A program made the position numbers and the translations under genes. This document shows positions 49,672-64,000 of a stretch of 64,000 nt of DNA, piece by piece (positions within the stretch are counted from its first letter, which is position 1; each line of letters starts with the position of its first letter). The stretch comes from Nocardiopsis sp. TSRI0078 (lineage in GTDB: Bacteria; Actinomycetota; Actinomycetes; Streptosporangiales; Streptosporangiaceae). The stretch lies in contig NZ_LWLB01000012.1 of assembly GCF_001905145.1 (NCBI RefSeq), positions 310,001 to 374,000 of the forward strand. The letters are read 5' to 3'. Below the pieces are notes generated by a model. That model was given only the letters and a program-made list of their open reading frames with translations. It ran no database searches and was not told where the DNA came from.

Positions 49672-50322
49672 ATGAATGACAGTTTGGTGTGGATCGACTG
49701 CGAGATGACGGGCCTGGACTTCGAGAGCGACGCGCTGATCGAGGTGGCCTGTCTGATCACCGACGGGGAGCTCAACATCCTCGACGAGGGTGTGGACGTC
49801 GTGATCAGACCCCCGCAGGACGCACTGGACCGTATGGGCGACTTCGTGCGCGACATGCACACCACCTCCGGGCTGCTGGAGGAGCTGGACAAGGGTGTGA
49901 GCCTGCAGGAGGCCGAGGACCTGGTCCTGGAGCACATCCGCCAGTACGTGACCGAGCCGCGCAAGGCCCCGCTGTGCGGGAACTCGATCGCCACCGACCG
50001 CACGTTCCTGGCGCGTGACATGAAACGCATCGACGAGTTCCTGCACTACCGGATGGTGGACGTGTCCTCCATCAAGGAGCTTCTGCGCCGCTGGTACCCG
50101 CGCGTGTACTACGCGAGCCCGGAGAAGAACGGCGGCCACCGGGCGCTGGCCGACATCACCGAAAGCATCCGTGAGCTGCGGTACTACCGCGCCGCGGCCT
50201 TCGTCACCCCGCCCGGCCCGAGCTCGTCCGAGGCCCGCTCCATCGCCGCCGACGTGGTCGCCGGAGGCACCGGAACGAAGGCCCGCGAGGAGGCTTCGAA
50301 GGACGGCACGGCCGGAAACTGA
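49672..50322 (+). CDS. orn: Oligoribonuclease
   Basis: 216 residues. Degrades 2-5-nt RNA oligomers, including pGpG, from the 3' end. DEDDh exonuclease motifs: WIDCEMTGLDFESDALIEV (Exo I, D and E), GNSIATDRTFLARDM (Exo II) and GGHRALADITESI (Exo III, His and Asp). A C-terminal ~35-residue extension is non-conserved. ATG 49672 lacks a Shine-Dalgarno sequence and follows a TAAGCT -10-like hexamer at about -15, suggesting a leaderless mRNA. tRNA-His follows directly. Confidence 0.95.
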   Translation: MNDSLVWIDCEMTGLDFESDALIEVACLITDGELNILDEGVDVVIRPPQDALDRMGDFVRDMHTTSGLLEELDKGVSLQEAEDLVLEHIRQYVTEPRKAPLCGNSIATDRTFLARDMKRIDEFLHYRMVDVSSIKELLRRWYPRVYYASPEKNGGHRALADITESIRELRYYRAAAFVTPPGPSSSEARSIAADVVAGGTGTKAREEASKDGTAGN

Positions 50323-50387
50323 TCGAAGCACTCCCCCGAGTCCGCTAAGCTTGAGACGTACGCAGGGCCGAGAGGTCAGGCGCACGT

Positions 50388-50464
50388 GGTGGGTGTAGCT
50401 CAGCCGGTAGAGCACTTGGTTGTGGTCCAAGAAGTCGCGGGTTCAAGTCCCGTCACTCACCCCA
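50388..50464 (+). tRNA. tRNA-His (GTG anticodon)
   Basis: Cloverleaf: acceptor GTGGGTG (50389-50395) with CACTCAC (50454-50460, one G-U pair), D-arm GCTCAGCCGGTAGAGC, anticodon loop TTGTGGT with anticodon GTG (50420-50422), T-arm CGGGTTCAAGTCCCG. The extra 5' G at 50388 faces C at 50461, the His-specific G-1:C73 identity pair, and CCA (50462-50464) is encoded. The 3' end is partly repeated downstream and probably serves as the integration site of the adjacent element. Confidence 0.97.
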
Positions 50465-50593
50465 GAGGCGAAAGCCCCTGACCAGCGGAAACGCATAGTG
50501 GTCAGGGGCTTTTGCGTTGTCGGGGGTGCACCAGCGGGTGCACGGGGGTGGCAATCTGCCCGGTGGGTGTGCACCGCCCATCCCGTCACTCAC
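50448..50593. repeat. 13-bp direct repeat of the tRNA-His 3' end (candidate att core)
   Basis: TCCCGTCACTCAC occurs in the tRNA T-stem/acceptor (50448-50460) and again at 50581-50593, 133 bp apart. tRNA 3' ends are the standard attB of actinomycete integrases, and such a repeat beside an integrase gene is what an att core or residual site looks like. No further copy was noticed in the window, so the distal att site is not identified. Confidence 0.6.
50471..50513 (+). terminator. Terminator after tRNA-His
   Basis: AAAGCCCCTGACCA / TGGTCAGGGGCTTT, perfect 14-bp stem with 14-base loop and TTT run, 6 bp beyond the tRNA. Confidence 0.85.
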
Positions 50594-50622
50594 TTCGCGG
50601 GTGGGGGTGCACCCGGGTGCAC
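50524..50622. repeat. GGGTGCAC repeat cluster (candidate integrase/Xis arm sites)
   Basis: GGGTGCAC occurs at 50524, 50536, 50605 and 50615, and a variant GTGTGCAC at 50567. Spacings within pairs are 12 and 10 bp. The cluster flanks the second att-like core (50581-50593) and lies 150-250 bp ahead of the integrase gene, the expected position of attP arm-type sites. Confidence 0.6.
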
Positions 50623-50775
50623 GGATCCATGTCGGCACGGCACCGAACCCCCGCATCCAGGACAACAGCGGCGATCAACGGATGGACCGAACACCCCTGC
50701 TGGCCTGCGAAAAGATTGTCGAGAACCTTCGCCGATTCCCTTCGCTTTGGCCCCCACCCAAGCGATGGTCCACCC

Positions 50776-52140
50776 ATGGCAACCATCAACCAGCGCACAC
50801 TGGCCGACGGACGCACCCGCTACTGGGTGAAATGGCGGCTCGGCGGCACCCGCACCGGCGCACCCCAGTCCGAACCCTTCGACACCCACGCCGACGCCCA
50901 CACCTTCAAACTCCACGTCGAAGCAGCCGGACACCACTGGCCCGAGAACTGGATCCGCCGCCAGGGCTGGGCCCCGGGATGGGTCCCCGGCCACGGCTGG
51001 GTCAAGACCGAGGAAGAGGACGACGAACCCGAAACCGAGCCGGTGCTGTTCGCCGACTACGCCCGCGACCTCGTCGACTCCATGACCGGCATCGCCGAAC
51101 GCACCCGCGCCGACTACCACCGCGACCTGGACATCCACCTGATCCCCCGCTTCGGAAAGGTGAACCTGCGCGACCCCGCCCAGCTCAAACCCAAGGACGT
51201 ACGGGCCTGGGTCAACCACCTGCGCACCGGCGTCCCCGACCCCACCGCCCCGCGTAGGGCCGATCCACCCAGCCGGGGCCGCAAGAAGGAACCGGGGTGG
51301 CTGCGCAAACCCCTCTCACCCAAGTCCATCCACAACCTGCACGGGCTGCTGTTCACCGTCTGCGAGGCCGCCGTGCGCGAGGACCCGCCGCTACGGCCCT
51401 CCAACCCGGCCTCGCGCACCCGTCTGCCCCGCGTCGACGACGGCGAGGGCGATCACGACATGTGCTTCCTGACCCGCGACGAGTTCACCCTGCTGCGGGA
51501 CTCCATGGCCGAGGACGTACGCGACATGGTGGAGGTGTTCGTGCGCACCGGGATGCGCTACAGCGAACTCACCGCCCTGCAGGTCCGCGACATCACCCTC
51601 ACGTCCGCCATCGGCTCCGACGGACAACCGCTCACCCGGGGGCACCTGGACGTGCGTCGGGCGTGGAAGCGCTGCCCCGACAACACCTTCCGACTCGGTG
51701 CTCCCAAGACCCGCAGCTCGCGCAGGCGCATTCCGCTCTCACCGCGCACCATCGATCTTCTCCGCCCAAGGTTGGAGGGCAAGGGCCCGGAGGAGTTCGT
51801 GTTCACCACCGAGCGGGGGTCCTGGTGGCGGCACTCCTCCTTCTACGGGCGCAGGTGGGCGCCCGGGGTCAAGGAGGCCCAGCGGCGGGGGCTGGGCAAG
51901 AAGCCGCGCATCCACGACCTGCGCCACACCCACGTGGCCTGGTTGATCGACAAGGACGTGCACGTGTTCAAGATCCAGCGCCGTCTGGGCCACACCTCGA
52001 TCACCACGACCATGGACCGGTACGGGCACCTGGTCACCGACATCGACGACACCATGATCGAGGCCATCGACGGCCCGCCCGCCGGGACCGGTCCCTGGAC
52101 CGATCCCGGTGATGAGCAGCGCCTGCGTCTGATCTCCTAG
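50776..52140 (+). CDS. int: Tyrosine recombinase (integrase)
   Basis: 454 residues. N-terminal AP2-like/arm-binding part (1-80), SAM-like core-binding domain (~90-210, FADYARDLVDSMTGIAERTRADY), catalytic domain (~230-440): Arg in VFVRTGMRYSEL, His-x-x-Arg in IHDLRHTHVAWLI, His in RRLGHTSITTTM and the nucleophile Tyr in MDRYGH. Catalyses site-specific integration at the neighbouring tRNA-His. ATG 50776 (MATINQRTLADGRTRY) is the conserved N-terminus although its ribosome site is weak; the frame extends upstream through the repeat cluster. Confidence 0.93.
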   Translation: MATINQRTLADGRTRYWVKWRLGGTRTGAPQSEPFDTHADAHTFKLHVEAAGHHWPENWIRRQGWAPGWVPGHGWVKTEEEDDEPETEPVLFADYARDLVDSMTGIAERTRADYHRDLDIHLIPRFGKVNLRDPAQLKPKDVRAWVNHLRTGVPDPTAPRRADPPSRGRKKEPGWLRKPLSPKSIHNLHGLLFTVCEAAVREDPPLRPSNPASRTRLPRVDDGEGDHDMCFLTRDEFTLLRDSMAEDVRDMVEVFVRTGMRYSELTALQVRDITLTSAIGSDGQPLTRGHLDVRRAWKRCPDNTFRLGAPKTRSSRRRIPLSPRTIDLLRPRLEGKGPEEFVFTTERGSWWRHSSFYGRRWAPGVKEAQRRGLGKKPRIHDLRHTHVAWLIDKDVHVFKIQRRLGHTSITTTMDRYGHLVTDIDDTMIEAIDGPPAGTGPWTDPGDEQRLRLIS

Positions 52141-52214
52141 AGCCGCTATGGGTCCCGGGTATGCCGGTGGGGCGGGTCGAACACCCGCCCCACCGGTTCA
52201 CTTGGGCTTCTCGC

Positions 52215-52481
52215 CTACCGGGTGCGCGGCCACCCGTGGGCGTGGGCGACCCGCCGTCCGAGAGCCACCTGTTGGGCGGCCCTCGCCACGATCTGCTCCA
52301 AGTCGGCGGCACTGAAGCGCACGTGCTTGCCGAGCCTGCGGTGCGGCACCCGCCGCAACCGCACCCGTTCGCGAAGCCACGATTCTGGAACCGCGAGCAC
52401 CCGCGCCGCCTCAGGGATCGTCAGCAACCGTTCCGGTACCTTCTCCTCGCCGTCGTTGTCAGGCCGCCCGATCTGCGCCAT
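52215..52481 (-). CDS. Excisionase-like helix-turn-helix protein
   Basis: 88 residues. ERLLTIPEAARVLAVPESWL, then RVPHRRLGKHVRFSAADLEQIV: the MerR-like winged HTH of the excisionase/helix-turn-helix domain 17 family. Probably binds the repeat cluster to direct excision or modulates the integrase. ATG 52481 has GGGAGG five bases ahead. Its start overlaps the end of whiB by 23 bp on the same strand, so the two are translationally coupled, while the integrase is convergent. Confidence 0.8.
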   Translation of the reverse strand: MAQIGRPDNDGEEKVPERLLTIPEAARVLAVPESWLRERVRLRRVPHRRLGKHVRFSAADLEQIVARAAQQVALGRRVAHAHGWPRTR

Positions 52482-52902
52482 GCGCACCTCCCTCGCGCTC
52501 GTTGCGCGCAGCGGTGCGGAACTGGCGGCGTTCATCCTCGGAGGCGCCGCCCCACACCCCGTAGAGTTCGCCGCGCTTCATCGCCTCGGCCAGGCAGTTG
52601 ATCTGCACGGGGCACCAGCGGCACACCCGTTTGGCCGCACGCACCGACCCGCCCTGGTGCGGAAACCACAGATCCGGATCCTGCCCCCGGCAGGCCGCAT
52701 GTTCCTGCCACCTACCGGACCCGTCCCCATCGTCGTCCCCGGCGGTACGGGCGGCACTGGCCCCTGTGGGGCCGTCAGACGGCCGGTCCGCGCCCGGCGC
52801 ACCGCCATGGCCCGTGGGGCGCGAGCCCCGGGTTCGGGCCGCCGCGTTGCCCACCAACGGCCCCCGCTCCCCCAGCGATGCCCGTCGTCGCATGTCCCCC
52901 AT
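52459..52902 (-). CDS. WhiB-family iron-sulfur transcription regulator
   Basis: 147 residues. The C-terminal WhiB domain is complete: HAACRGQDPDLWF, then KRVCRWCPVQINCLA gives the four [4Fe-4S] cysteines (C, CxxC, C), then GVWGG and a basic tail (ERRQFRTAARNER) for DNA contact. The first ~65 residues are a disordered Gly/Arg/Thr-rich extension, longer than in most WhiB proteins. ATG 52902 with GAAGGGA six bases ahead. A perfect inverted repeat lies 11 bp upstream. WhiB proteins on mobile elements are common; the target is unknown. Confidence 0.88.
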   Translation of the reverse strand: MGDMRRRASLGERGPLVGNAAARTRGSRPTGHGGAPGADRPSDGPTGASAARTAGDDDGDGSGRWQEHAACRGQDPDLWFPHQGGSVRAAKRVCRWCPVQINCLAEAMKRGELYGVWGGASEDERRQFRTAARNEREGGAHGADRAA

Positions 52903-53565
52903 AGCCGTCCCTTCGTGATCGGTCACGATCCGCCCTGAACACCGCCGCCCGGTACCCGACCTCGGCTGTGCGCGGCGCGGCGTGGCGTTGGTGTGCTCGC
53001 CCTGATGAACCCCTACGAAGACATTCGCCACCGCGGATGCGACATCCGATTCGCGACCGCGATGCCGCGTCCGCCCAGCGCCGTCACCACTCGTCCGACC
53101 GGGCGCGAAGCAGGCCCGCGCCGCTGCGAGAGCAGCGCGGGAGAAGGACAGCGCGCCACCGTCCTCCTCAGCCGGCTGGCCGATCTTGACCGCGCCACGC
53201 CACCAGCACAGAGCAGTACGGGAAAGACCAAAGAGCAGTGCTGAGAGACAGGAAGAGCTTCCACAGAAGAGCGCAGAGAGCAGACCGTCTCGGATGATGA
53301 CGGCCTGGTGATGAGGGTGTGCGGGGGCGTTCACGCCCCCGCACACCCCGGGGCGCCGCCGCCCCACGTGAAGAGGACTACCTACCTAGGTAGACAGCCG
53401 GGGCGGCCGGTGGGCCACCCCAAAGCCCGCGCGACCTGCACTGTGACTGTTCTCAGGGGTGGTCCACCCAAGGCCGGAGCACCACGCGGACGCCCGGGCG
53501 GAGTAGACACCGGCCCAGTCACCGGCCCCCCGTTGGCCCTGGGGGTTCACCACACCCTCAAGGGC
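52903..53565. promoter_or_regulatory. 663-bp control region with several perfect palindromes
   Basis: Between whiB and the stop of the replication-relaxation gene. TCGTGA-TCGG-TCACGA (52913-52928) sits where a whiB operator or repressor site should be. CTACCTAGGTAG (53382-53393) is a perfect 12-bp palindrome in the repeated context CTACCTACCTAGGTAGAC. GGGTGG-T-CCACCC (53456-53468) is a third. Open frames through 53000-53360 on both strands have atypical composition and no ribosome site; I do not call them genes. Confidence 0.45.
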
Positions 53566-54405
53566 TCACCACTCGCCTTCCTCGACCGTGCGGTAGAGGT
53601 CAGCGATCTGGTGCAGGGAGACGAGGCGGGGGTCAGCGGCCGAACGCCAGATCGGTGCGCCCGCTCCCGGCCTCACCAGCCGGTGGTGGGTGGTCAGGTA
53701 CACCCCGATGCAGTCGGTGCAGTCCCCAGCCAGCTTCTGCGCCGCGTTGTGCTCGCGCTCTGGGGAATGGACGACGAACAGCACCACCGCGGCAGGAGTG
53801 CGGTACCGGATCAGGCGCTTGTAGCCATACATCTTGTTCTTGAGCTGGGTCAGGGACTCAGTGCCGGTGTCGTACTCCACGAACGCCCTCAGACGCGCCC
53901 CGCCCTGGTGCCAACTCACCCGGGCGTCGGGGCGCACGTCGTAGCCGTAGCGGCGTTCGCACTCGCGTTCGCCGAGCCAGTGCTCCACCTCGGCGCCGCA
54001 CTGGCGGGCGCTGCGCAGGAAGTCCACCCGGGTCTGGGCCAGTCCCAGCATGTGGTCCAGCTGGGGTGAGTGCGCCACGGCCAGAGCACGATCGGCGCGG
54101 AACTTCAGGGCGTCGGGTTCCTTGCCCTGGTGCAGGGCGACCAGAACGGCACCAGTGGGGGACAGGACCCAGTGGTCGGGGGCGTTGCGGTCGTGGGCGT
54201 GGCGGCGGAAGCGGTTGAGGACCCCGTACCGGTGCAGGGTGAGCAGGCGGGAGCGGGCCCGGCGTGGTCCGGCGTCGGGGAAGTAGATGTGGTGCAGATG
54301 GTGGGTGGTCATCACCCGGTGCTCCCAGAGCCCGGCCAGGATCTGCCGGTCCCGGTCGGTGATCCGGGGCGCCAGGCGGATCAGTGTCTTCTTGTAGTCG
54401 CTCAC
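53566..54405 (-). CDS. Replication-relaxation family protein
   Basis: 279 residues. N-terminal winged helix (ITDRDRQILAGLWEHRVMTTHHLHHIYF, RARSRLLTLHRYGVLNR), then a nuclease-like alpha/beta domain with ARVSWHQGGARLRAFVEYDTGTE (the Asp/Glu-x pattern of PD-D/ExK folds) and AAVVLFVVHSPERE. It matches the Replic_Relax family of actinomycete plasmids and integrative elements, proposed to act at the origin. GTG 54405 with GGGAGG six bases ahead. Four phased iterons lie 130 bp upstream, a plausible binding site or origin. Confidence 0.8.
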   Translation of the reverse strand: MSDYKKTLIRLAPRITDRDRQILAGLWEHRVMTTHHLHHIYFPDAGPRRARSRLLTLHRYGVLNRFRRHAHDRNAPDHWVLSPTGAVLVALHQGKEPDALKFRADRALAVAHSPQLDHMLGLAQTRVDFLRSARQCGAEVEHWLGERECERRYGYDVRPDARVSWHQGGARLRAFVEYDTGTESLTQLKNKMYGYKRLIRYRTPAAVVLFVVHSPEREHNAAQKLAGDCTDCIGVYLTTHHRLVRPGAGAPIWRSAADPRLVSLHQIADLYRTVEEGEW

Positions 54406-54533
54406 GCGTACCCTCCCGGGGCCGTCGCGGTCCTGTGCTTTTGACTCCCTAAAGAAGCCAGCTGAAGGCCCGGATGCGACACCGGCGGGGAGAATTCTTC
54501 CCTCGTGGGTCCCTGTGTTCAGCCTCGAGGGGC

Positions 54534-54577
54534 GGGTTCACTTCGGGTTCAGAAGGGGTTCAGAGCGGGTTCAGTGG
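54534..54577. repeat. Four GGGTTCA iterons with exact 11-bp period
   Basis: GGGTTCA at 54534, 54545, 54556 and 54567, each followed by four variable bases (cttc, gaag, gagc, gtgg). The period of one helical turn puts all copies on the same DNA face, as in Rep iterons or cooperative repressor arrays. A looser GTGTTCA precedes at 54515. The array lies 130 bp upstream of the replication-relaxation start, so it may be the element's origin or its operator. Confidence 0.7.
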
Positions 54578-54603
54578 ACGCACCGACCCCCGCCAACGCG
54601 CGT

Positions 54604-54633
54604 GGGGCGGCACCACACAAGTGGCACCGCCCC
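54604..54633 (-). terminator. Hairpin after the small membrane-protein gene
   Basis: GGGGCGG ... CCGCCCC outer stem and CCAC-ACAA-GTGG inner stem separated by a symmetric CA/CA loop, 19 bp beyond the stop at 54652. Confidence 0.55.
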
Positions 54634-54651
54634 GAGATGAAGGCGGGTTGC

Positions 54652-55125
54652 TCAGCGGCGTGTGTCCAGCCAGGTCCTCACCAGGCCGGCCAGCTCATCG
54701 AACTCCCCCGGCCCGCTCGCGACCACAACCTGCTGCCGACGGTCAGGTCCTCCGCCCGGGTGGCGGAACAGGTAGGGGCGTACTCCGCGCACTCCGTCGT
54801 CATCCACACACCAGCCCTGCTCGGAGGGGTGGGGTCGGCGAGGACGCGGAACCCGTACCGGCCCCGGAACCGGGCTTGCCTGCGGGGCACCGAAGGATGC
54901 ACCTGTCGACCGTGTCCTCTTCCCCGGGGCCGCTGCGGACCTGGACCGGGACGAGGGCCTCGCTTGTTCCAGCGCGCCCCGGTGAGGTGGCGGCAGCGGG
55001 CGCCGCTCCTGACGCACCTCCACGGAACTGCACAGCAGCGCGGTGAGTACCGCTCCGAACAGCCACCGCACCTGTTGGGCCCATCCTCGGACGGGTTTGC
55101 GGTGCCGACCGCTAGGCTTTTCCAC
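54652..55125 (-). CDS. Small membrane protein of the integrated element, unknown function
   Basis: 157 residues. One membrane helix near the N-terminus (WLFGAVLTALLCSS), an Arg/Pro/Ser-rich linker (~40-95), then a compact C-terminal part: WCVDDDGVRGVRPYLFRH ... QQVVVASGPGEFDELAGLVRTWLDT. Third-position GC bias and GGAGGA four bases before GTG 55125 support a real gene. No family recognised; the tail resembles short C-terminal segments of other actinomycete element-encoded proteins. Confidence 0.55.
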   Translation of the reverse strand: MEKPSGRHRKPVRGWAQQVRWLFGAVLTALLCSSVEVRQERRPLPPPHRGALEQARPSSRSRSAAAPGKRTRSTGASFGAPQASPVPGPVRVPRPRRPHPSEQGWCVDDDGVRGVRPYLFRHPGGGPDRRQQVVVASGPGEFDELAGLVRTWLDTRR

Positions 55126-55353
55126 GATCTCCTCCTGCTGATTCCAGGTGGGGATTCAGCCCTGGCCTGGTGCCGCTAACACCGGGCCGGGGCGCCTCCA
55201 CGTCTTCTGTCTTTGACTGTGTGGGGAGGGCGGGTGTCATTGACCCCGGGGTCGTACGCCACCCGGAACTGCGCTTCCCGCCCACACCACACAAAGGGCA
55301 CAAAAAGCCCGATCCCTACGGAAAAGGGTGCCGCTTCCACCGGGCTGGTTGAT

Positions 55354-55369
55354 GTTCACTTGGGTGAAC
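55354..55369. promoter_or_regulatory. Perfect GTTCAC-TTGG-GTGAAC inverted repeat
   Basis: 6-4-6 perfect dyad in the 289-bp space between the ATPase gene stop and the small membrane-protein gene; it sits 229 bp upstream of the latter. It shares the GTTCAC half with the first iteron unit (GGGTTCAC), so the same protein might bind both. It could also act as a weak hairpin. The rest of the 289-bp space shows nothing else. Confidence 0.4.
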
Positions 55370-55414
55370 GAGGTTCTTCAATACCTGCCGCTCGGAAACG
55401 TCATCGCGTTCGGA

Positions 55415-55912
55415 TCACAGGGGCAGGCGGGTCCGGCCGGAACGGTCGAAAGCGGCACGCACCGTCAACGGGCCTCCCGCGTTTCCGGAGAAGTCCCAGT
55501 ACAGGGCCAGTGCGTCCACCAGCGCCAGGCCGTACCCGCCCTCGGCCAACACGGGTTCGGTCTTCCCTGCGTTGCGCTTGGTGGGCGCGGTGGGCACGGT
55601 GGCCTGCTTGCCGGGTTTGGGGCCGTCGTCGCCGACATGGAGCAGGAACAGGCGCGGGCGCCGCTGGATCTCGATCCGCACCCGACCACCCGGAAGCCCC
55701 GAGGCGGTGTGGCGCAGGGCGTTGGTGTGCAGCTCGGCCAGACACACCAACAGCGGGTGGGCGACCGAGGGTGTGGTCCTGGTGACCTGCATCGCCCACC
55801 GGCGCGCGGCCTTCACGTGGTGGAGGTCGCAGCCGCACACCAGGCCGCTGGTGCCGGGGTCGGTGTGGCGGATACGCCTGGGCAGATCGAGAGAGGTCTG
55901 AGCCGGAGTCAT
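55415..55912 (-). CDS. RsbW-like ATP-binding protein (HATPase_c_2)
   Basis: 165 residues. GHKL ATPase elements: N box LLVCLAELHTNALRHTASG, G1-like VGDDGPKPG (usual DxGxG is relaxed), G2 EGGYGLALVDALA. Such short proteins act as anti-sigma kinases or are orphan actinomycete ATP-binding proteins near XRE/DUF397 regulators, as here. ATG 55912 is divergent from the XRE gene. Partner unknown. Confidence 0.75.
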   Translation of the reverse strand: MTPAQTSLDLPRRIRHTDPGTSGLVCGCDLHHVKAARRWAMQVTRTTPSVAHPLLVCLAELHTNALRHTASGLPGGRVRIEIQRRPRLFLLHVGDDGPKPGKQATVPTAPTKRNAGKTEPVLAEGGYGLALVDALALYWDFSGNAGGPLTVRAAFDRSGRTRLPL

Positions 55913-56024
55913 GGATTTCCACCGGGTCCTTTCGTGGGGTCGTAGTCACTTTGTGTGAGCCCGCGACGACAGGATGCGGCCCTGGAGAAAAGATCCGTAA
56001 GCGCGTCCGGATAACCCGTGAATC

Positions 56025-56053
56025 TTCCAGGGGCCTCTGGAATCTTCTGGAAT
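56025..56053. promoter_or_regulatory. CTGGAAT/TTCCAG operator-like cluster before the XRE gene
   Basis: TTCCAG-GGGCCT-CTGGAA (56025-56042) is a perfect 6-6-6 dyad, and CTGGAAT recurs ten bases later (56037 and 56047). It is located 40-70 bp ahead of the XRE start and 115 bp ahead of the divergent ATPase gene. Likely autoregulatory site of the XRE protein. Confidence 0.45.
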
Positions 56054-56092
56054 TCCCCCACGGAGCATGTCGTGGTGTGGTCCTATGAAGGC

Positions 56093-56920
56093 ATGACCCC
56101 TGACGAACGCACCTTGAAGGTTTTCGGGCGCGAGTTGCGTAGGCTGCGAATCGAGGCCGAGCTGACTCAGGAAGCCGTCGCGCGCCGCATCAGCCAGCGG
56201 GGAACGGCGATCAGCAACTCCCATGTCTCCGATATCGAGAACGGAAAGGCGATAGCCCGCCCCTGGCTGCGTCGAACCCTCGACGAGACGTTGCACGGCG
56301 GCGGGCGTCTGGAGCGGCTCTGGGAGGAGCTGACGGGTTCGGGTCGGCGGGCGTGGTTGCATGAAGTCGCCGAGCGCACCCACACCGCTGACGCCCTGTA
56401 CGAGTACCAGGCGTTGGTGTTCCCGGTGTATCTACAGACCGAGGCCTACTCGCGGGCCGTGATCCGCTACGGTGCTCCCTGGCTGTCCGCGAACGAACTC
56501 GCCGAGCGCGCCCAGCAAAGGGCCCGCAGGGCGCAGCAGATGGCCAAGGCGCTCTCCCCCGTCATCTGGCTCGTGGTCGACCAGTCCCTGCTCATGCGCC
56601 GCTACGGTTCGGCACAGGTGCAGTTGGAACAGCTCGAATACGTGGTGGACCTGGTGGAGAAGGAACGCGTCAACTTGCTGGTGGTGCCCGTGGACGAGCC
56701 GCGCCACGCAGGCAACAACGGCCCCTTCCGCGTCATCACCTCGGCCGACCAGCCCGAGGTGGTCTACGTGGAGTCGGCTCACCAGGGGCAGATCATCACC
56801 GCGACCAACGAGGTGGGCCGTTACCGGATGTGGTTCGCGGCCTTGCAGGGCGTGGCCTGGGGACCGGATGAGACGCTAAGGACCATCCGTAACGAAATGA
56901 AGAGGATCAACGGTGACTGA
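56093..56920 (+). CDS. XRE-family regulator with DUF5753 domain
   Basis: 275 residues. HTH at ~10-60 (FGRELRRLRIEAELTQEAVA, ISNSHVSDIENGKA), then DUF5753 (~85-270): YEYQALVFPVYLQTEAYSRA, WLVVDQSLLMRRYGS, VNLLVVPVDEPRHAGNNGPF. These regulators pair with a small DUF397 protein, present immediately downstream. ATG 56093 is the family-like start; GTG 56072 with a better ribosome site (GGAG) would add seven residues. Known relatives control development or antibiotic genes in streptomycetes (WhiJ type). Confidence 0.88.
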   Translation: MTPDERTLKVFGRELRRLRIEAELTQEAVARRISQRGTAISNSHVSDIENGKAIARPWLRRTLDETLHGGGRLERLWEELTGSGRRAWLHEVAERTHTADALYEYQALVFPVYLQTEAYSRAVIRYGAPWLSANELAERAQQRARRAQQMAKALSPVIWLVVDQSLLMRRYGSAQVQLEQLEYVVDLVEKERVNLLVVPVDEPRHAGNNGPFRVITSADQPEVVYVESAHQGQIITATNEVGRYRMWFAALQGVAWGPDETLRTIRNEMKRINGD

Positions 56921-57089
56921 GTGGCACAAGTCGTCCTACAGCGGCGGCAACAACGAGTGCGTCGAAGTCCGCGAACACAACACCGGAGCGGACATGCGCG
57001 ACACCCAGAACCGCGACCTGGGCCGCCTCTCCTTCAGCGGTTCCGAATGGAGCGCCTTCGTCATCGCCCTTCACCTCACCAGCGAGTAA
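56913..57089 (+). CDS. DUF397 protein
   Basis: 58 residues, too short for most gene finders' cut-offs. Begins TEWHKSSYSGGNNECVEV, the DUF397 signature (W-KSSYS-----CVEV), then GADMRDTQNRDLGRLSFSG and SEWSAFVIAL. GTG 56913 overlaps the last codons of the XRE gene by 8 bp, so translation is coupled. Probably the partner/antagonist of that regulator. Ends 3 bp before the convergent Nudix gene stop. Confidence 0.88.
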   Translation: MTEWHKSSYSGGNNECVEVREHNTGADMRDTQNRDLGRLSFSGSEWSAFVIALHLTSE

Positions 57090-57092
57090 CGC

Positions 57093-57563
57093 CTACGAGA
57101 TGGTCTCACCGTTCTCCAGGTAGACAGTTGTGCCCTCCTGGCGTGCGCGTGCGCCATGGGCGACCCTGCGCGCGAGCCGGGGGATCGTCACCGATTCGAT
57201 CGTGGCCACGTCGTGAAACTCGTATCCGGTCAACTCGGCCGGATCGAGAGTGATCTGGTTCAACCAGCCCTGGTCCAGCACTCCCCCGTCGAAGACGAAC
57301 AACTGCTTGTCGCCCTCAGAAGGGTTGGGCGCCCAGTCCACGACCAGAAGTCGCCCGATGGGTGGAGCGATCCCCAGTTCCTCCTTCACCTCGCGCACCA
57401 CGGCCTGGGTCGGTGTCTCCCCGTGCTCGATGTATCCACCGGGGATGTCCAGGTAGTCCTTGTAGGAGGGAACCACCATCATCACCTGACCGAGGTGATT
57501 GAAGAACAGGGCACCAGCGGCGACCCTTGGGCGAGAGAAGGATTCTGTGGGATCGGAAGCCAT
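57093..57563 (-). CDS. Nudix hydrolase
   Basis: 156 residues. Complete Nudix box: GGYIEHGETPTQAVVREVKEELG with the EExGE-type metal site. The fold starts at VAAGALFFNHLGQVMMV. Cleaves a nucleoside diphosphate linked to X; substrate unknown. It follows the XRE/helical-repeat regulator by 24 bp on the same strand, so the two are probably co-transcribed and read away from the metK-like operon. GGAGG lies 16 bases ahead of ATG 57563. Confidence 0.88.
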   Translation of the reverse strand: MASDPTESFSRPRVAAGALFFNHLGQVMMVVPSYKDYLDIPGGYIEHGETPTQAVVREVKEELGIAPPIGRLLVVDWAPNPSEGDKQLFVFDGGVLDQGWLNQITLDPAELTGYEFHDVATIESVTIPRLARRVAHGARARQEGTTVYLENGETIS

Positions 57564-57587
57564 GCCCCGACACTAACGGCCTCCGCG

Positions 57588-58817
57588 TCAGAACATCCCC
57601 ATCCGGTGCGCCAAATCCGCCAGCCTCCGATCCCGTCTCCCCGCCTTGGTCCGCATCATGCGCCCCACGATCTGATGGCTCATCACGTGCCGGTGGACAT
57701 GGGAGGCTGCCAACCTCTCCGCCTCCAGCATGCGCTCAACGGCTGACGGGATCTCGTTGACGTTCGCGAACGCTCCGGCCACGTCGAAGAGGTGGCGTAC
57801 CCGCCTCTCCCGTGGCAGGGCCGCAGTATTGACACCAACTCCCAGTTCGAGAACAGCGCGCGGGTCTCCAAGGCTGGCGGCAACGGTCACTCTGTGCAGG
57901 ACCACGTTGGTCGGACCGAACGCCGTCCACAGATGGTTGGCGTCTCGCCCAAGCCGGGAAGCGACGCGTTCGGCTTCCTCCAGGTACTCCATCGCGCTGG
58001 CACGATCCCCATTGCGTGCTGCGGCCACGGCTCCCGGCAACAACAGGGTGCCGTAGACGGACAGCAACCGCGCGTTGGTGGGACGATCGCCCTGTTCCCT
58101 CCGCAGATACGAAGCGGCTTCCCCTGTCAGCGCGACGGCCGTCTCGTGTTGCCCTCGTGAGTGGAGGGAGTGCACCCCCGAACGCATCAGGGAGCCCTGA
58201 AGGGTCAGATCGCCGTAGTCGAAGGCAGCCTTCATACCTCGCTCCGTCGCGATCCAAGCCAGATCTGCTTCTCCGACCTTGGTGAGAATCATCGCGCACG
58301 CCTGACAGGCCAGAGCGAGCAGAGCTCCAGCTTGCCGCCTCTGCTCGCCCTCGTAGGCACGCACCGCGGTATGCGCCCGAGCGAGGAGGTCGGGGATCCC
58401 ACGAAATACCCGGCTGTAGTTGGATGCTTGGTAGGCGCCCATGATCGTTTCCGCCTCGTTTCGAAGAAAACGCAGGTCCGGTCGCTCACCGTTGTTCCCG
58501 ACGAACGGGAAAACTGAGCTGATCTGTCGGTAATCCATCAAGACTGACCGGATCTGAGCGACATGCGCGTCCGTTTTCTTGTGGTGCCCATGGTGCGTGT
58601 GGTCTCCGATCAGAGCGATAACAGGAACGCCGAGGGCATCGGCCAGTGAACTGATCACCGAGAGTCGGTCCAAGGGCGCCCGGTCGTTCTCGACCTTGCC
58701 CAGCCAGTCAGCCGTTCTCCCGACCAGACCCGCCAGCACCTCTTGAGAAAGGCCGCGTCGGAGCCGGTGCCAGGCGACCCGCTGGCCGGGGCTGAGCTGA
58801 GGGGAACTCGGAGGCAT
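57588..58817 (-). CDS. XRE-family regulator with C-terminal TPR-like repeats
   Basis: 409 residues. HTH at ~8-62 (QRVAWHRLRRGLSQEVLAGL, RTADWLGKVENDRA, LSVISSLADALGVP), then ~300 residues of helical TPR-like repeats (QAGALLALACQACAMILTKV, AMEYLEEAERVASRLGRD, VERMLEAERLAASHVHRH). This type commonly regulates neighbouring secondary-metabolite or modification clusters in actinomycetes. Start ATG 58817 (MPPSSPQLSPGQ) has GGAAGGG five bases ahead. Divergent from the metK-like operon across 163 bp and therefore its likely regulator. Confidence 0.82.
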   Translation of the reverse strand: MPPSSPQLSPGQRVAWHRLRRGLSQEVLAGLVGRTADWLGKVENDRAPLDRLSVISSLADALGVPVIALIGDHTHHGHHKKTDAHVAQIRSVLMDYRQISSVFPFVGNNGERPDLRFLRNEAETIMGAYQASNYSRVFRGIPDLLARAHTAVRAYEGEQRRQAGALLALACQACAMILTKVGEADLAWIATERGMKAAFDYGDLTLQGSLMRSGVHSLHSRGQHETAVALTGEAASYLRREQGDRPTNARLLSVYGTLLLPGAVAAARNGDRASAMEYLEEAERVASRLGRDANHLWTAFGPTNVVLHRVTVAASLGDPRAVLELGVGVNTAALPRERRVRHLFDVAGAFANVNEIPSAVERMLEAERLAASHVHRHVMSHQIVGRMMRTKAGRRDRRLADLAHRMGMF

Positions 58818-58980
58818 CAGAGCCCTTCCTGAACACCCCGGAATTTCTTTCCGGGTCACGCGGAGGACATGGCCTTAACTTCCTAACACCCCGTCCACCC
58901 GTGGAGAAGGCCCGGCCCTCCCTCTTATCTGACATTCCCTCGAAGCTCGTTAACGGACTTGACCAAATAGGAGGCAGTCA
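58818..58980. promoter_or_regulatory. Divergent control region, regulator / metK-like operon
   Basis: 163 bp. Contains CGTTAACG (58948-58955, perfect 8-bp palindrome) and TTAACTTCCTAA (58874-58885), both AT-rich islands in this genome and candidate operator elements. GGAGG at -7 precedes the metK-like ATG 58981. A TTGACC at 58959 is too close to the start to be a normal -35. Confidence 0.4.
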
Positions 58981-60228
58981 ATGCGCATAACCTGCCACGA
59001 AGCCCTCGTTCCCAGCACGGACTTCGGCTTCAACGTGGTCGAACGCAAGGGTATCGGCCATCCGGACTCACTCGCCGACCTCATCGCGGAAGAGTTCTCC
59101 CGCCGCTATTCGCTTCACGGACTCGACCGCTTCGGGGCAGTCCCGAACCACTGGGTGGACAAGGTGGCCCTGGTCGGCGCCGAGGCGGAGGTCGACTTCG
59201 GCGGCTACACGATCCGCAAGCCCATCAGCGCCTACCTGTTCGGCAAGGTGACGCGTGCGGTGGGCACCGAGGCCTTCCCCATCGAGGACCTGTTCCGAGC
59301 AGCAGTCGAAAACGTGCTGGCGGGGGCAACCGGCAGCGACCAGATCATCCGCTCCGTGCGCAGCTTCGTAGAGAACACCGCAGGCATCGGAGCTGACCAT
59401 CCGACCTCGTTCTACCGTCCCTCCGTCGTTGACGAGTGCCGTATCGCCACGGGGGGAGCTCTGGCCAACGACACGGCCTTCTGTAGCGCCTACTCCCCCG
59501 CCGACCCTCTGGACACCTTGGCGATCGACGTGGAGAACCACGTCAACAGCCCCTCATTCAGAGATGCGTTCCGCGGGCTGGGTTCCGACGTCAAGGTGAT
59601 GTTGACCAGAGCGGCGGACGTGCTGCAAGCGACGGTCTGCCTTCCGGTATATCCGGAAACGGTCGGCTCGCACCGCGAGTACACGGCCCTGGTGTCCGAG
59701 GCATACGACCGTCTCGACGCCTTCGTCAACGAACACCCGGTCGTGCGGCAGCATCCATGGCTCACACGGCTGAGCGTCAACACCAAGGACCAGGGCAGCA
59801 GCGCCTATCTGGCGCCGTTCGGCACATCCCTGGGCAAGGGCGACTGCGGGCTCGTCGGGCGCGGCAACAAGGCCAACGGCGTGATCTCCGCCAGCGGCGG
59901 CGCGGGTGTGGAGGCCCTGGCCGGAAAGAACCCGGTGCACCACACCGGCAAGCTGTACACGCTCGCCGCCGCACGCCTGGCGGACCGCATCCACGCCAAG
60001 CTCGGCGTACCCAACGAGGTCGTGCTCGTGTCGCGCAACGGTGACCGCCTGGATGACCCGTCGTTCGTCGGCGTTCGGCTGGCACGGCGAGGCAACCGCC
60101 TCAACCACGGTGCTGTGGAAGAGCTGACCGCCGCGACACTGGCCGAACTTCCGCTGCTCTCCGAGCGCCTACTCACCCTGTCCCCGATGGACCGCTTCCG
60201 CGACCCGTCGCTGGCCCTGGAGGTGTGA
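58981..60228 (+). CDS. Archaeal-type S-adenosylmethionine synthetase
   Basis: 415 residues. ERKGIGHPDSLADLIAEEFS near the N-terminus, DECRIATGGALANDTAFC-type centre, GRGNKANGVISASGGAG and GKNPVHHTGKLYTLAA near the C-terminus are the signatures of the archaeal AdoMet synthase family (PF01941 type), not of bacterial MetK, which has GHPDKICDQ and GAGDQG. Length matches archaeal enzymes (~400). Forms SAM from methionine and ATP. First gene of an operon: the next ATG is 4 bp after the stop, and GGAGG for it lies in the last codons. Its presence implies a dedicated SAM (or SAM-analogue) supply. Confidence 0.9.
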   Translation: MRITCHEALVPSTDFGFNVVERKGIGHPDSLADLIAEEFSRRYSLHGLDRFGAVPNHWVDKVALVGAEAEVDFGGYTIRKPISAYLFGKVTRAVGTEAFPIEDLFRAAVENVLAGATGSDQIIRSVRSFVENTAGIGADHPTSFYRPSVVDECRIATGGALANDTAFCSAYSPADPLDTLAIDVENHVNSPSFRDAFRGLGSDVKVMLTRAADVLQATVCLPVYPETVGSHREYTALVSEAYDRLDAFVNEHPVVRQHPWLTRLSVNTKDQGSSAYLAPFGTSLGKGDCGLVGRGNKANGVISASGGAGVEALAGKNPVHHTGKLYTLAAARLADRIHAKLGVPNEVVLVSRNGDRLDDPSFVGVRLARRGNRLNHGAVEELTAATLAELPLLSERLLTLSPMDRFRDPSLALEV

Positions 60229-60232
60229 GCCG

Positions 60233-61135
60233 ATGCCGGACACCGATCTGGCCGAGCGCAGCGTCGTCCTCGTCACCTTGGACTCCTGCCGCTACGACGT
60301 CGCGGCGAGCGCACACACCCCGAACCTGGCGAAGCTCGGCCCGCTGCTGCGAGCCGAGAGCCCGGGAACCTACACGCTCCCCGCACACGCCGCGCTGTTC
60401 AACGGCTTCCTGCCCCGACCAGTCTCGGGGGCCCTCACACTCGACGGGAACACTGTGGACGCGGTCTGGCGTTCGGCCGCCGCCCGACCCTCGAAACGCC
60501 ACGCCGCCATCCCCTTCGACGGCCCCACCTTGATGGCGCACTACAGCGAGAAGGACTACCGGGTGGTGGGCGCTGGAGGCGTCACCTTCTTCGACTCCTC
60601 GGATCCGGCCAACGGCCTGCCGAAGCTGTTCTCGGAGTTCCACTACTTCGGTCGATCCTCCCGCGCCCCGGCCACACCAGAAGCTCGTGTCGCCGAGCGC
60701 GGTGAGGATCTGCCGTTGGCCCACACCCGGACGCTCGCGGACCTGTGCCTGGAGGCCGAACGGTTCTTCCTGTTCGTCAACTGCTCCAGCACACACATCC
60801 CCTACACAACCCCGTTCAGTCCCCTCACTGACCGGAACAGAGAACTCCTCCGACACCTCTACCGGCTACACGACTCCCAACAGGCCGCCTCTGACGAGAA
60901 AGCCCTGACCGCCGACGACATCGAAGTGCTCCTAGGCATGCAGAGGCGCGCCCTGGAATGGGCCGACACCCGCTTGGGCGACCTGTTCTCACGGCTGAGC
61001 ACACAACGCCCCCTGGTGGTGGTCTGCGCCGACCACAGCGAGGAATTCGGAGAAGGCGACAGGTTCGGCCACGCGCACCCGCATCCGACGGTCGCCACGG
61101 TGCCGCTGTGGTGTGGCGTGTTGGGCGAGGGATGA
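60233..61135 (+). CDS. Alkaline-phosphatase-superfamily hydrolase (sulfatase/phosphodiesterase-like)
   Basis: 300 residues, short for the superfamily. N-terminal metal motif VVLVTLDSCRYDVA (Asp17), candidate nucleophile Thr48 in GTYTLPAHAALFNG, matching the T-x-P/S-H arrangement of phosphodiesterase/phosphomutase-like members rather than the CxPSR of sulfatases; C-terminal metal ligands VVCADHSEEFGEGDRFGH (Asp-His and a later His). No signal peptide, so cytoplasmic. Predicted to hydrolyse or transfer a phospho- or sulfo-ester; substrate unknown. Starts 4 bp after the SAM synthetase stop and ends 3 bp before the next ATG. Confidence 0.78.
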   Translation: MPDTDLAERSVVLVTLDSCRYDVAASAHTPNLAKLGPLLRAESPGTYTLPAHAALFNGFLPRPVSGALTLDGNTVDAVWRSAAARPSKRHAAIPFDGPTLMAHYSEKDYRVVGAGGVTFFDSSDPANGLPKLFSEFHYFGRSSRAPATPEARVAERGEDLPLAHTRTLADLCLEAERFFLFVNCSSTHIPYTTPFSPLTDRNRELLRHLYRLHDSQQAASDEKALTADDIEVLLGMQRRALEWADTRLGDLFSRLSTQRPLVVVCADHSEEFGEGDRFGHAHPHPTVATVPLWCGVLGEG

Positions 61136-61138
61136 TCC

Positions 61139-62536
61139 ATGGTCGACCTCCAGCCTTGGTTCACGCATCCCGCGATCACCGCGGCTGCCTCCGAGGGAGT
61201 CCGGACACGGCTGGGCATCTCCCCCAACCACGCGTCCTTTCGTGTCGGAGTCCTGCGCACCCACCTGCTCACCGCGCTTCTGGCCCACAGGGCCGCACAG
61301 TATCTCGGTGTCCGTACGCGGGTGGCGGTTCGGTGGGACGACAGCGACAGCCTGCGCAGCCGCGACGAATACCGATCACGGCTTCTCCAAGAGCTCACGC
61401 GGGTGGCTCAGATACCGGTCGAGGACGAACAGCGAGTCTTCCGCCAGAGCCAGCGAGGCGACCGGTACCAGCAGGCCTTACAGCGGCTGGATATCCAAGG
61501 TCTCCTGGTGACGAGGCGAGGACTTCCCTGCTTTGATGTGACCGCCGCGGACCGGCTCATGAACGCACGGGGTGTCTGTCCCAAGTCCCTGACCGCCTCC
61601 GTGGTCGTGAACACGACCACGGCCCTCGACCCAGCGCAGGAGACGGTCCCGCTCATGCGAAGTGACGGACGGGCACTATGGCACCTGGCCACGGTCGTCG
61701 ACGACATCGAACAGCGCACGACCCTGATCGTCCGGGGCACCGACAAATGCGACGCCACGCCCGCTCAGGTCCGCCTGTACTGGGCCCTGGCTGAAGGAGG
61801 ACGCCCTCCGGCTCACCTGTTCCTCTCCAAACTGCTGGAACCGGGGCCTGTCGTACCTCGCGTCGCTGACCTTCTCGGACAAGGCATCAGGCCCTCGACC
61901 CTGCGGCACTTCTTCGCGGAGCCGTACCTGGACCAGTCTCGGCCAACTGCTCGGCCGGTCGGCTTCTCCGAGCTGGTGGATCAGATCCGTACGGTTCTTC
62001 CCCACCACGGGGACGGTCTCCTGGACGAGCCACGTCTACGCTCCCTGGATCGGAAGGTGTCCGTCACCCTCACTCCAGAGGTGGCCTGTCAGGAACTGGA
62101 TGACCGGTGTCCGGGGGCATCCCCGGGCGTCCTCAAGTGGATCACCCAGCACTACCCGCGGCCGCTGCTCCAACAGGTCCAGCTGTGTCGGGCACTCACC
62201 GATACGGAGATCGAACATGCACCGCCTCCAGCGCAGGCAGAGGAGGCACTGTGGTGGCTGGACGCCTGGTCATGTGGCACGGCCAAGTGCCCGCCTCCGC
62301 ATACGGTGCGCTGGGTGCTCACCGGACAGCGGGACGGGCCCCGGGCGTCGGAACTGCTGGAGGTCTTTCCTCCGGAGTTGACTGCCGTGCGACTGGCTTC
62401 GGCCCGTCAGGCGTTGAGCCGCTCCAGCGCCACGCGCAGGCGCTCCAGCGTGCGCTCGCGGCCCAGCAACTCCAGCGACTCGAAAAGCGGCAAGCCGACC
62501 GTACGTCCGGTCACCGCGACCCGCACGGGAGCCTGA
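61139..62536 (+). CDS. Degenerate glutamyl-tRNA-synthetase-like protein
   Basis: 465 codons in frame. Aligns by eye with GltX of the neighbouring gene: [17 protein letters not shown] against the RIEDTD block, [19 protein letters not shown] against [39 protein letters not shown] against the VIRGEEHL block. HIGH is replaced by FRVG and KLSKR by FLSKLL, so normal aminoacylation is doubtful. The C-terminal half (~240-420) is helical. Codon 114 is TTA, the only TTA codon I noticed in any gene here. The last ~43 codons run antisense through the 3' end of gltX, suggesting a displaced stop. Confidence 0.78.
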
Positions 62537-63822
62537 GCCTTGCCGAGCTTGAGCCCTTGAGTGGCCCCGGCCTGCTCAAGGGCTCCCTTCAAGGATTCGG
62601 CATCCCAGGCCAGGGACTCGTCCGAGTAGGTAGCGATCGCTGCGGTGAGCATCTCCGCGCCGATCCCGGGCTTCATGGCCTTGGCCCAACTCTTGTCATC
62701 GAAGACCGGAGTGTCCAGGAACAGGAAGTCCACGTTCGGCACGATCTCGCTGAGCACCGCCACCCGGCTCTGCGCCAGCGGGGCGATCTTGGCGAACACA
62801 TCCGCGTCGAAGTCCTCGCTTCGCCACGGCACCTGATCGCCCTCCAGGTAAGGGGCGCAGCGTTTAACGAACTCGTCCACGCCCAGGGCGCGGATGTAGT
62901 CGCCGTTGAAGGCGCGCAGCTTCTTCTCGTCGAAGAAGGCGGGCGAGGAGTTGACGTCAGCCAGATCGAAGAGCGGAATCATCTCCTCGATCGGCATGAT
63001 CTCGCGGTCGTCCCCGGGCGCCCACCCCAGCAGCATCAGGTAGTTGACCATGGTCTCGGGCAGATACCCCTCGGCCTGGTAGGACTCCATGGCGACCTTG
63101 TCCCGGCGCTTGGACAACTTCTGGCGCTTCTCGTTCACCAGAACCGGAGCGTGCGCCCACACCGGCGGGGTGTGCCCCAATGCCTCCCACAGAAGCTGCT
63201 GCTTGGGAGCGTTGGACAGGTGCTCCTCGCCACGGATGACGTGCGTGATGCCCATCTCCACGTCGTCCACCACGTTGGCCAGCACGAACAGGGCGGTGCC
63301 GTCGCCGCGGGCGATCACGAAGTCCTCCAGGGCCTCGTGCGGGAACTCCACCCGGCCCCGAATCTGGTCCTCGACCACGGTCGGTCCGCCCTCGGGGATC
63401 CGGAAGCGGAGCGCCCGCCCGGTGCCGGCCTCCAGACCGCGGTTCCGGCAGAACCCATCATAGCCCAGGTTGGGGTTGTCGCGGCGGGCCTGGACCTGGT
63501 CACGGGTGCAGTCGCAGTAGTAGGCCAGACCTTCCTTGCGCAGGCGCTGGGCGGCCTCGGTGTGCTTGTCGGCAGCCTCAGTCTGGGAGTAGGGGCCCTC
63601 GTACTGGGTGGAGTCCACCCCGAGCCAGGACATCGCGGCCAGGATGCCCTCGGTCCACTCGGGGCGGGAGCGGGCGGCGTCGGTGTCCTCGATCCGCAGC
63701 ACCATGGTGCCGCCGGATTGTTGCGCGACCACCCAGTTCAGCAGCAGGGACCGGGCGTTGCCCACGTGGAACATGCCGGTCGGGGAAGGGGCGAACCTGG
63801 TGCGAATCGAGGTGTCAGTCAC
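62407..63822 (-). CDS. gltX: Glutamyl-tRNA synthetase
   Basis: 471 residues. Class I aa[21 protein letters not shown] (HIGH-type motif HVGN), [15 protein letters not shown], Cys-rich zinc-like [35 protein letters not shown] (KMSKS). All catalytic motifs intact. GTG 63822 is chosen because the conserved N-terminus follows directly; the frame stays open 29 codons more. Tail-to-tail with the GltX-like gene, overlapping it by 130 bp. Base composition looks less GC-rich than in the backbone, so it could be a second, acquired copy rather than the housekeeping one; this cannot be decided here. Confidence 0.93.
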
Positions 63823-64000
63823 CCCACAAAGCCTAGCGTGATCGGCTGCTGCGCCGGGGCTGGACAGCGATCGGTCCGAAGAATCTGAAGTCGTGATCAG
63901 TGAGTTCACCGGACACGACCCCGTACAGCTCAGTTCCCCTGTTTACTTCACGGGTACTGAGCCCACACGCCCTCGAAAGCGAGCCTTCCCGTGTCCGACA
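63823..64000. other. 178 bp to the window edge, nothing identified
   Basis: Upstream region of gltX. Moderately AT-richer, with CACGGGTACTGAGCCCACACG; no reading frame, tRNA end or copy of the tRNA-His att core was seen. Confidence 0.4.

Follow-up and report, generated by a model that had tools for sequence, protein, structure and literature searches.

Three closely packed genes of the actinomycete Nocardiopsis sp. TSRI0078, lying in a stretch of 64,000 nucleotides (hereafter the window; contig NZ_LWLB01000012.1, positions 310,001 to 374,000), encode a divergent archaeal-type methionine adenosyltransferase (MAT), a hydrolase resembling STM4013 and a paralogue of glutamyl-tRNA synthetase (GluRS) that we call GLXL, and the trio is followed by a convergent gene, gltX2, for a second complete GluRS. 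The MAT, hydrolase and GLXL genes form a real conserved unit whose recurrence is beyond chance: trio and convergent gltX stand in the same order at all 13 loci where GLXL was found, in five genera. The reading that we favour, which we rate at just under an even chance, is that the trio would form a minimal pathway to a small molecule of adenosyl type that has GluRS as its target, and that gltX2 would provide a self-resistant second copy of that target. We infer the product, the inhibition of the first enzyme (GltX1), the resistance of GltX2 and the steps of the pathway.

Full-length GLXL was detected in 13 of 298 genomes of the family, eight of them among the 40 sampled from the window's genus and five in four other genera. 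The last 130 bp of GLXL are antisense to gltX2, and 280 of the 298 genomes match the full GLXL because its last codons are the antisense of gltX in most of them; the profile work therefore used GLXL residues 1-421, with the core of the gene taken as 61139-62401. An earlier sequence-only reading of the window had proposed that the three genes work together and had looked to their recurrence as neighbours in other genomes; all 13 loci found keep all three, which bears the proposal out. When a sample of the class was searched, intact GLXL, trio-type hydrolase and trio-type MAT were found in the same 4 of 394 genomes, the hydrolases scoring 128.6-133.5 bits and the next match 38.4; one further genome held a GLXL fragment only, and one gave a weak partial match. 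At nine other actinomycete loci with an archaeal-type MAT (three of them short, 3-12 kb), neither GLXL nor a trio-type hydrolase was found nearby. GLXL fragments lying outside the overlap with gltX persist at five cassette-free loci, so there has been repeated loss of the cassette (these loci were chosen after GLXL search matches, and 5 of 20 is not a random sample).

Purifying selection acts on all three genes. Median ratios of nonsynonymous to synonymous substitution (dN/dS), obtained by a counting method in which dS was often high, were 0.27 for MAT (78 pairs), 0.27 for the hydrolase (55 pairs, 11 sequences) and 0.33 for GLXL (70 usable of 78 pairs). The hydrolase alignment covers 11 of the 13 loci, with two reading frames uncalled, and the trees use 13. 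Trees of MAT, hydrolase, GLXL and gltX are broadly congruent in their deep branches. The strains that the window's MAT joins (support 100/99) are not those joined by its GLXL and hydrolase (100/99 and 95/93), which points to gene exchange inside the locus; the 3' half of this MAT gene is 93% identical in DNA to that of genome G260, and the 3' half of GLXL just 73%. The divergent regulator and the Nudix gene on the other side of the trio, which had been counted with the cassette, are present at only 7 of the 13 loci and are therefore accessory rather than core, so they are dropped from the unit. At the Actinorugispora locus (L039:11882-13545), an AAA_33 gene and a chloramphenicol-phosphotransferase-like gene take their place. 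A plasmid or phage origin was considered and rejected: there was no plasmid match, two weak matches to phage records covered 22% of GLXL, and no viral contig was matched.

The GluRS gene beside the trio had been regarded as an ordinary neighbour, and proves instead to be one of a duplicated pair. There are two complete gltX genes in the genome, which score 423 and 416 bits and are 75% identical; the window's is the one of 416 bits, and the other lies on contig C34. Two gltX genes were found in all 13 cassette genomes, as against two or more in 14 of 285 other genomes of the family (E<=1e-90); among these 14, G291 also has its gltX1 on two contigs and G132 has its second copy split into two matches. 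In a tree of 53 GltX sequences, 19 second copies fall into one clade (100/100), 11 of them from cassette genomes. The cassette-linked copies of G030 and G107 instead group with the gltX1 of their own genomes (100/99), so that these two genomes came by their second GluRS independently, through recruitment or through replacement by conversion.

By motif, GltX2 looks like a working synthetase: HVG and KLSKR are kept in 21 of 21 second copies, the window's gltX2 having HVGN and KLSKR. It is the fourth residue of the HIGH motif that separates the copies. This residue is Gly in all 37 gltX1 (32 plus five more, with one duplicate row left out), Asn in all 19 copies of the gltX2 clade and Ser in both G030/G107 copies; when the second copies described below are added, 24 of the 28 have a residue other than Gly there, as does none of the 37 gltX1. 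Positions fixed differently number 16 (those listed) in the gltX2 clade and eight in the G030/G107 pair. Two are common to both, and one of these (position 486) is already present in the G030/G107 gltX1, which leaves the fourth HIGH residue as the only informative one. The coincidence of a HIGH change in the two lineages that accompany the trio is suggestive, not proof. A change in the HIGH motif, at its first and third residues, is a demonstrated route to resistance in IleRS2, according to the accessible part of one report (PMC10485003).

Precedent for a protective second synthetase comes from the producers of albomycin, mupirocin and indolmycin, in which a second, insensitive aminoacyl-tRNA synthetase (SerRS, IleRS and TrpRS, respectively) protects the cell, as described in the part of a review available to us (PMC9437257). 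The present locus resembles these cases in having an extra complete copy beside a small biosynthetic-type gene set and the other copy elsewhere, in 13 of 13 cassette genomes. It differs in that those duplicates are about 30% identical between copies, as against 75% for the gltX pair of this genome, and in that the target would be GluRS, with both the product and the insensitivity of GltX2 still putative. The table of synthetase duplications in the same review, as far as its accessible part goes, lists only YadB as a GluRS paralogue and no antibiotic-linked GluRS duplicate (PMC9437257). A description of the trio or of a GluRS self-resistance gene was not found in listings of the open-access literature, nor was any mention of gltX or glutamyl found in the self-resistance papers searched.

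The MAT is clearly a member of its Pfam family and reached no equivalog cut-off. In the accessible part of the report on T. kodakarensis MAT (4L4Q), the active-site residues are the catalytic His33, the ribose-binding Asp201 and Asp283, the stacking Tyr271 and Asn161, and His62 and Asn64 form the pair that binds the methionine carboxylate (PMC3853416). The trio MATs are homologous to this enzyme over the whole length, at about 30% identity, and keep the equivalents of His33, Asp201, Asp283, Tyr271 and Asn161 in 13 of 13 sequences (T. kodakarensis numbering). They differ from it at the carboxylate pair, which is replaced by Asn/Trp in all 13 (Asn56 and Trp58 in the window, within the motif PNHWVDK). 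Of nine other actinomycete archaeal-type MATs, all have the His of this pair and eight have the Asn; none has the Asn/Trp combination. Because the genome also encodes an ordinary bacterial MetK, the MAT of the cassette is an extra enzyme.

The nearest named family of the hydrolase is STM4013 (NF038075), which it matches at 133 bits, under the curated cut-off of 250. It has Asp17, Thr48, His52 and His188 in common with canonical STM4013 proteins from 30 loci, in a comparison that leaves out the C-terminal part of the canonical rows, and Asp267, His268 and His280 are invariant in the 11 trio hydrolases. By analogy with enzymes of the alkaline-phosphatase (AP) superfamily, we take these residues to be metal ligands and Thr48 to be the nucleophile. 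Kinship with the STM4013/SEN3800 family is thus seen in common Asp, Thr and His positions, and distance from it in a score below the family cut-off. The predicted model of the hydrolase (mean predicted local distance difference test score, pLDDT, 55.8) gave no match at 0.001 in a fold search. A canonical STM4013 gene is also present elsewhere in this genome (L147:4219-9569, contig C4), in a cassette with STM4011, STM4014 and STM4015 that includes a radical S-adenosylmethionine (SAM) gene.

GLXL has the outline of a GluRS from which the ATP machinery has been removed. Its best NCBIfam matches are the GluQRS and GltX models (62 bits for GluQRS, against a cut-off of 277), and its profile matches fall in two segments, with a further weak one at the C-terminus. 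In a Foldseek search its structural model (mean pLDDT 72) aligned with bacterial GluRS over the full length, including the C-terminal part (8jpv, E 1.2e-11). When the sequences were aligned with 31 GltX sequences, the HIGH histidine was found to be changed to Arg and the KMSKS loop to be deleted in 13 of 13 GLXL; the arginines of RFAPSP and IRG were kept in all 13. GLXL thus has the full-length fold and two conserved arginines in common with GluRS, and is without the HIGH histidine and the KMSKS loop. What we say of the pocket comes from the GltX alignment together with roles that we take from T. thermophilus residues. Judged from its sequence, GLXL is probably unable to activate glutamate in the usual way, but it may have kept the ability to bind an amino acid or tRNA. 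The sequence-only reading had suggested that a degenerate GluRS works on Glu-tRNA or glutamyl-adenylate, or on a non-tRNA acceptor, in an operon for a product derived from SAM or Glu-tRNA, with the hydrolase trimming a phosphorylated intermediate. Because the HIGH histidine and the KMSKS loop are gone from all 13 proteins, GLXL is unlikely to form glutamyl-adenylate itself, and that part of the suggestion is not supported; an adenosyl- or SAM-type pathway is still the most natural reading. GLXL also differs from GluQRS, which is without the anticodon domain according to the accessible part of the review cited above (PMC9437257), in that GLXL keeps the C-terminal part.

In the pathway that we propose, MAT would move the 5'-adenosyl group of ATP onto a thioether substrate and would bind its carboxylate in another way than that of methionine is normally bound; this substrate could be a conjugated or a different amino acid. 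The hydrolase, as a putative AP-superfamily enzyme with a Thr nucleophile, would remove a phosphate or cut a phosphodiester during maturation or release. GLXL, with the two arginines of the amino-acid side kept and the ATP machinery gone, would hold an intermediate, glutamyl or adenosyl, and not adenylate it, and gltX2 would sustain translation while GltX1 is inhibited.

Second gltX genes also lie beside other gene clusters. Five genomes of the family with two copies and without the trio, each of another genus (G015, G027, G075, G237 and G256), were examined for that reason. In G027, G075 and G256 the second gltX adjoins what we call cluster B, with a radical SAM gene, a MAT, a methyltransferase, an FkbM methyltransferase and two further genes that by eye are PhyH dioxygenase-like and ATP-grasp-like (here and below, functions given by eye have no search behind them); gltX is codirectional with the cluster in G256 and convergent with it in the other two genomes. 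All three cluster B MATs have the Asn/Trp pair and the PNHWVDK motif, as do the 13 of 13 MATs of the trio (type A), with the reservation that those of G027 and G075 contain one stop within the 380 residues read, which may mean a shifted or shorter gene. The fourth HIGH residue is Asn in all three cluster B gltX. Cluster C, in G015 and G237, comprises a 2-hydroxyacid dehydrogenase, a MoaA-like radical SAM protein, a 386-residue protein without a family, a second radical SAM protein, a carbamoyltransferase and an HD protein related to ppGpp hydrolases, and it is convergent with gltX.

A search for second gltX copies outside the family, in 197 genomes of the class (181 of them outside), found them only in G351 and G393 (E<=1e-90), and since 51 of the 197 gave no match at all at this threshold, further copies may be missed. 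Both of these second copies are convergent with cluster C, of which five of six genes were called in each genome (the HD gene was uncalled in G351 and the MoaA-like gene in G393), and their products are 77-80% identical to the G015/G237 copies and 64% identical to the window's. Cluster C and its gltX therefore recur as a package in three families (loci L219, L220, L223 and L224). In a tree of 64 GltX sequences the second copies occupy four places: the type A clade, G030/G107, B and C. At the ten gltX1 loci of the window's genus (gltX1 assigned by motif), no MAT was found.

The gltX2 clade itself extends to genomes with other neighbours. G088 and G248 keep GLXL fragments. In G283 the set convergent with gltX2 contains an ordinary MAT of the His/Asn type, a complete SerRS (L104:11989-13395) and, by eye, a histidine-phosphatase-like gene, and is possibly another synthetase-linked pathway; G251 and G291 have another gene set in common beside gltX2. 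In G086, whose GltX2 is identical to that of G111, isoaspartyl-methyltransferase-like, PqqD-like and asparagine-synthase-like genes were recognised by eye beside gltX2 (L222:8637-10886), as in lasso-peptide loci, and nothing clear was seen in the gltX2 flanks of G220. Sequence searches of the PDB with one protein each of cluster B, cluster C, G283 and G251 gave no match.

A bolder proposal, which we consider possible and clearly more doubtful than the favoured reading, is that types A, B and C are an actinomycete family of small, outwardly unrelated loci that make nucleoside-like compounds directed at GluRS, each with its own resistant second GluRS. Clusters B and C hold enzyme sets, and type A has three genes only; type A would be the smallest form, with a MAT reshaped for a substrate that is conjugated or is not methionine, a phosphoesterase of the AP superfamily and a catalytically emptied GluRS as scaffold for the glutamyl or adenosyl part.

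Several observations weigh against the reading of a GluRS-directed product with gltX2 as self-resistance gene. Eight of the 19 members of the gltX2 clade come from genomes without an intact trio, and genes of this clade adjoin other cargo and defence genes as well. The ordinary HVGG is present in 4 of 4 cluster C second gltX, so that the HIGH change is not a general mark of resistance; the chance expectation of positions shared by the two type A lineages is about 0.26 by our estimate; and the HIGH positions changed in IleRS2, as given in the accessible part of that report, differ from the fourth position changed in gltX2 (PMC10485003). Three genes are very few for an antibiotic pathway, and no exporter appears among the 25 of 101 Pfam families listed for the cassette flanks.

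The main rival, unlikely as we judge it, makes gltX2 a dedicated supplier, its Glu-tRNA being the donor for a product and being used by GLXL or another enzyme. Valanimycin synthesis reportedly uses seryl-tRNA as donor in this manner. The intact catalytic motifs of all 21 GltX2 copies would suit such a role, as would the full-length GluRS match of the GLXL model, and the G283 set linked to gltX2 holds a complete SerRS together with a MAT. However, clusters B and C keep a second gltX although the GLXL profile finds gltX alone there, and a supplier of Glu-tRNA would have no need of the HIGH-motif change seen in 24 of 28 second copies.

A positional explanation, to which we give rather less credence, is that the 3' side of gltX2 is an insertion hotspot, so that the function of the trio would be unrelated to gltX2. 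The differing cargo convergent with genes of the gltX2 clade (the trio, the G283 set, the G251/G291 set and the G086 set) is what a hotspot would produce, and integrase genes lie near two loci. Such an explanation fits less well with the four tree places from which second gltX genes adjoin such clusters, with the lack of MAT at gltX1 loci and with the recurrence of cluster C, with its own gltX, in two other families.

It is quite improbable that the trio is an anti-phage or stress module that makes or senses a nucleotide signal, with gltX2 restoring translation. The flanks do have the look of defence regions: PADLOC families numbered 132 among 124 cassette-flank proteins and 32 among 112 control proteins (E<=1e-15), the control being arbitrarily chosen loci of the same 13 genomes, and the families overlap, so that these numbers do not count systems. 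The scans covered 124 of 138 flank proteins (the regulator, the Nudix protein and some end genes were left out) and 114 of 200 and 112 of 194 proteins in two control sets; the control set with 99 families was left unused as a clean control because its 13 loci were mixed, three being gltX2 loci (L104, L105 and L114) and ten gltX1 loci. Matches in the flanks include type I and type II methyltransferases and two type I-E Cas sets, and type I and type III restriction-modification genes occur near gltX2. Against a defence role, none of the three trio proteins gave a PADLOC match at 0.01. Clusters B and C have a biosynthetic look and likewise come with a second gltX and, in B, with the Asn/Trp MAT pair, and the deep branches in common with gltX are unlike those of a fast-moving defence gene. 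That GLXL modifies tRNA as GluQRS does, with MAT and the hydrolase making the modified base, is very improbable, for although the GluQRS and GltX models are its best NCBIfam matches, GLXL falls far below the GluQRS cut-off, keeps in its model the anticodon-domain part that GluQRS is described as being without in the accessible part of the review (PMC9437257), and has neither the HIGH histidine nor the KMSKS loop.

The features of the locus are collected in Table 1. The gaps of 4 and 3 bp that had been read between the three packed genes are exact by the coordinates of their open reading frames; gltX had been described as abutting the end of GLXL, and in fact the two 3' ends overlap, by 130 bp at 11 of the 13 cassette loci and by 40 bp at the other two. 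The likely start of gltX2, read from the sequence, is the GTG at 63822, giving 471 residues and agreeing with the end that the gene had been assigned earlier. Neighbourhood genes were called with a simple GC3-based caller. No SAM or T-box riboswitch was found upstream of MAT; the Rfam scan of 50000-64000 gave a tRNA and one sub-threshold match only.

Table 1. Genes of the cassette and its immediate neighbours, in window coordinates.
Feature	Position	Strand	Match and remarks
Nudix hydrolase	57093-57563	-	PF00293 (NUDIX); paired with regulator
XRE/TPR-type regulator	57588-58859	-	HTH_31; NsdA-family match 22.6 bits, under cut-off 75; divergent from MAT
MAT, divergent archaeal-type methionine adenosyltransferase	58981-60228	+	PF01941 240 bits (cut-off 27)
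STM4013-like hydrolase, alkaline-phosphatase/sulfatase superfamily	60233-61135	+	Sulfatase 26.7 bits (cut-off 25)
GLXL, GltX-like GluRS paralogue	61139-62536	+	tRNA-synt_1c 29 bits (cut-off 23.4)
gltX2, second complete glutamyl-tRNA synthetase	62407-63822	-	TIGR00464 416 bits (cut-off 290)

Beyond these genes, an integrative element adjoins the cassette at 50389-54405, with a tRNA-His followed directly by a phage-integrase-family gene, an HTH_17 gene and a Replic_Relax gene; genes related to this element are also present near the cassette in G245 and G242. On the same contig past the window (L031:1562-8723), a type III restriction-like gene (ResIII, RE_endonuc) and a helicase gene lie near gltX2.

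If the reading of the trio as a source of a GluRS-directed molecule is correct, a second gltX beside a MAT of the Asn/Trp type would be a sequence handle for natural inhibitors of GluRS. GLXL would then be a defined case of a pseudo-synthetase kept in a metabolic unit, and the MAT of the trio would be one in which the substrate pocket has changed and the chemistry has been kept.

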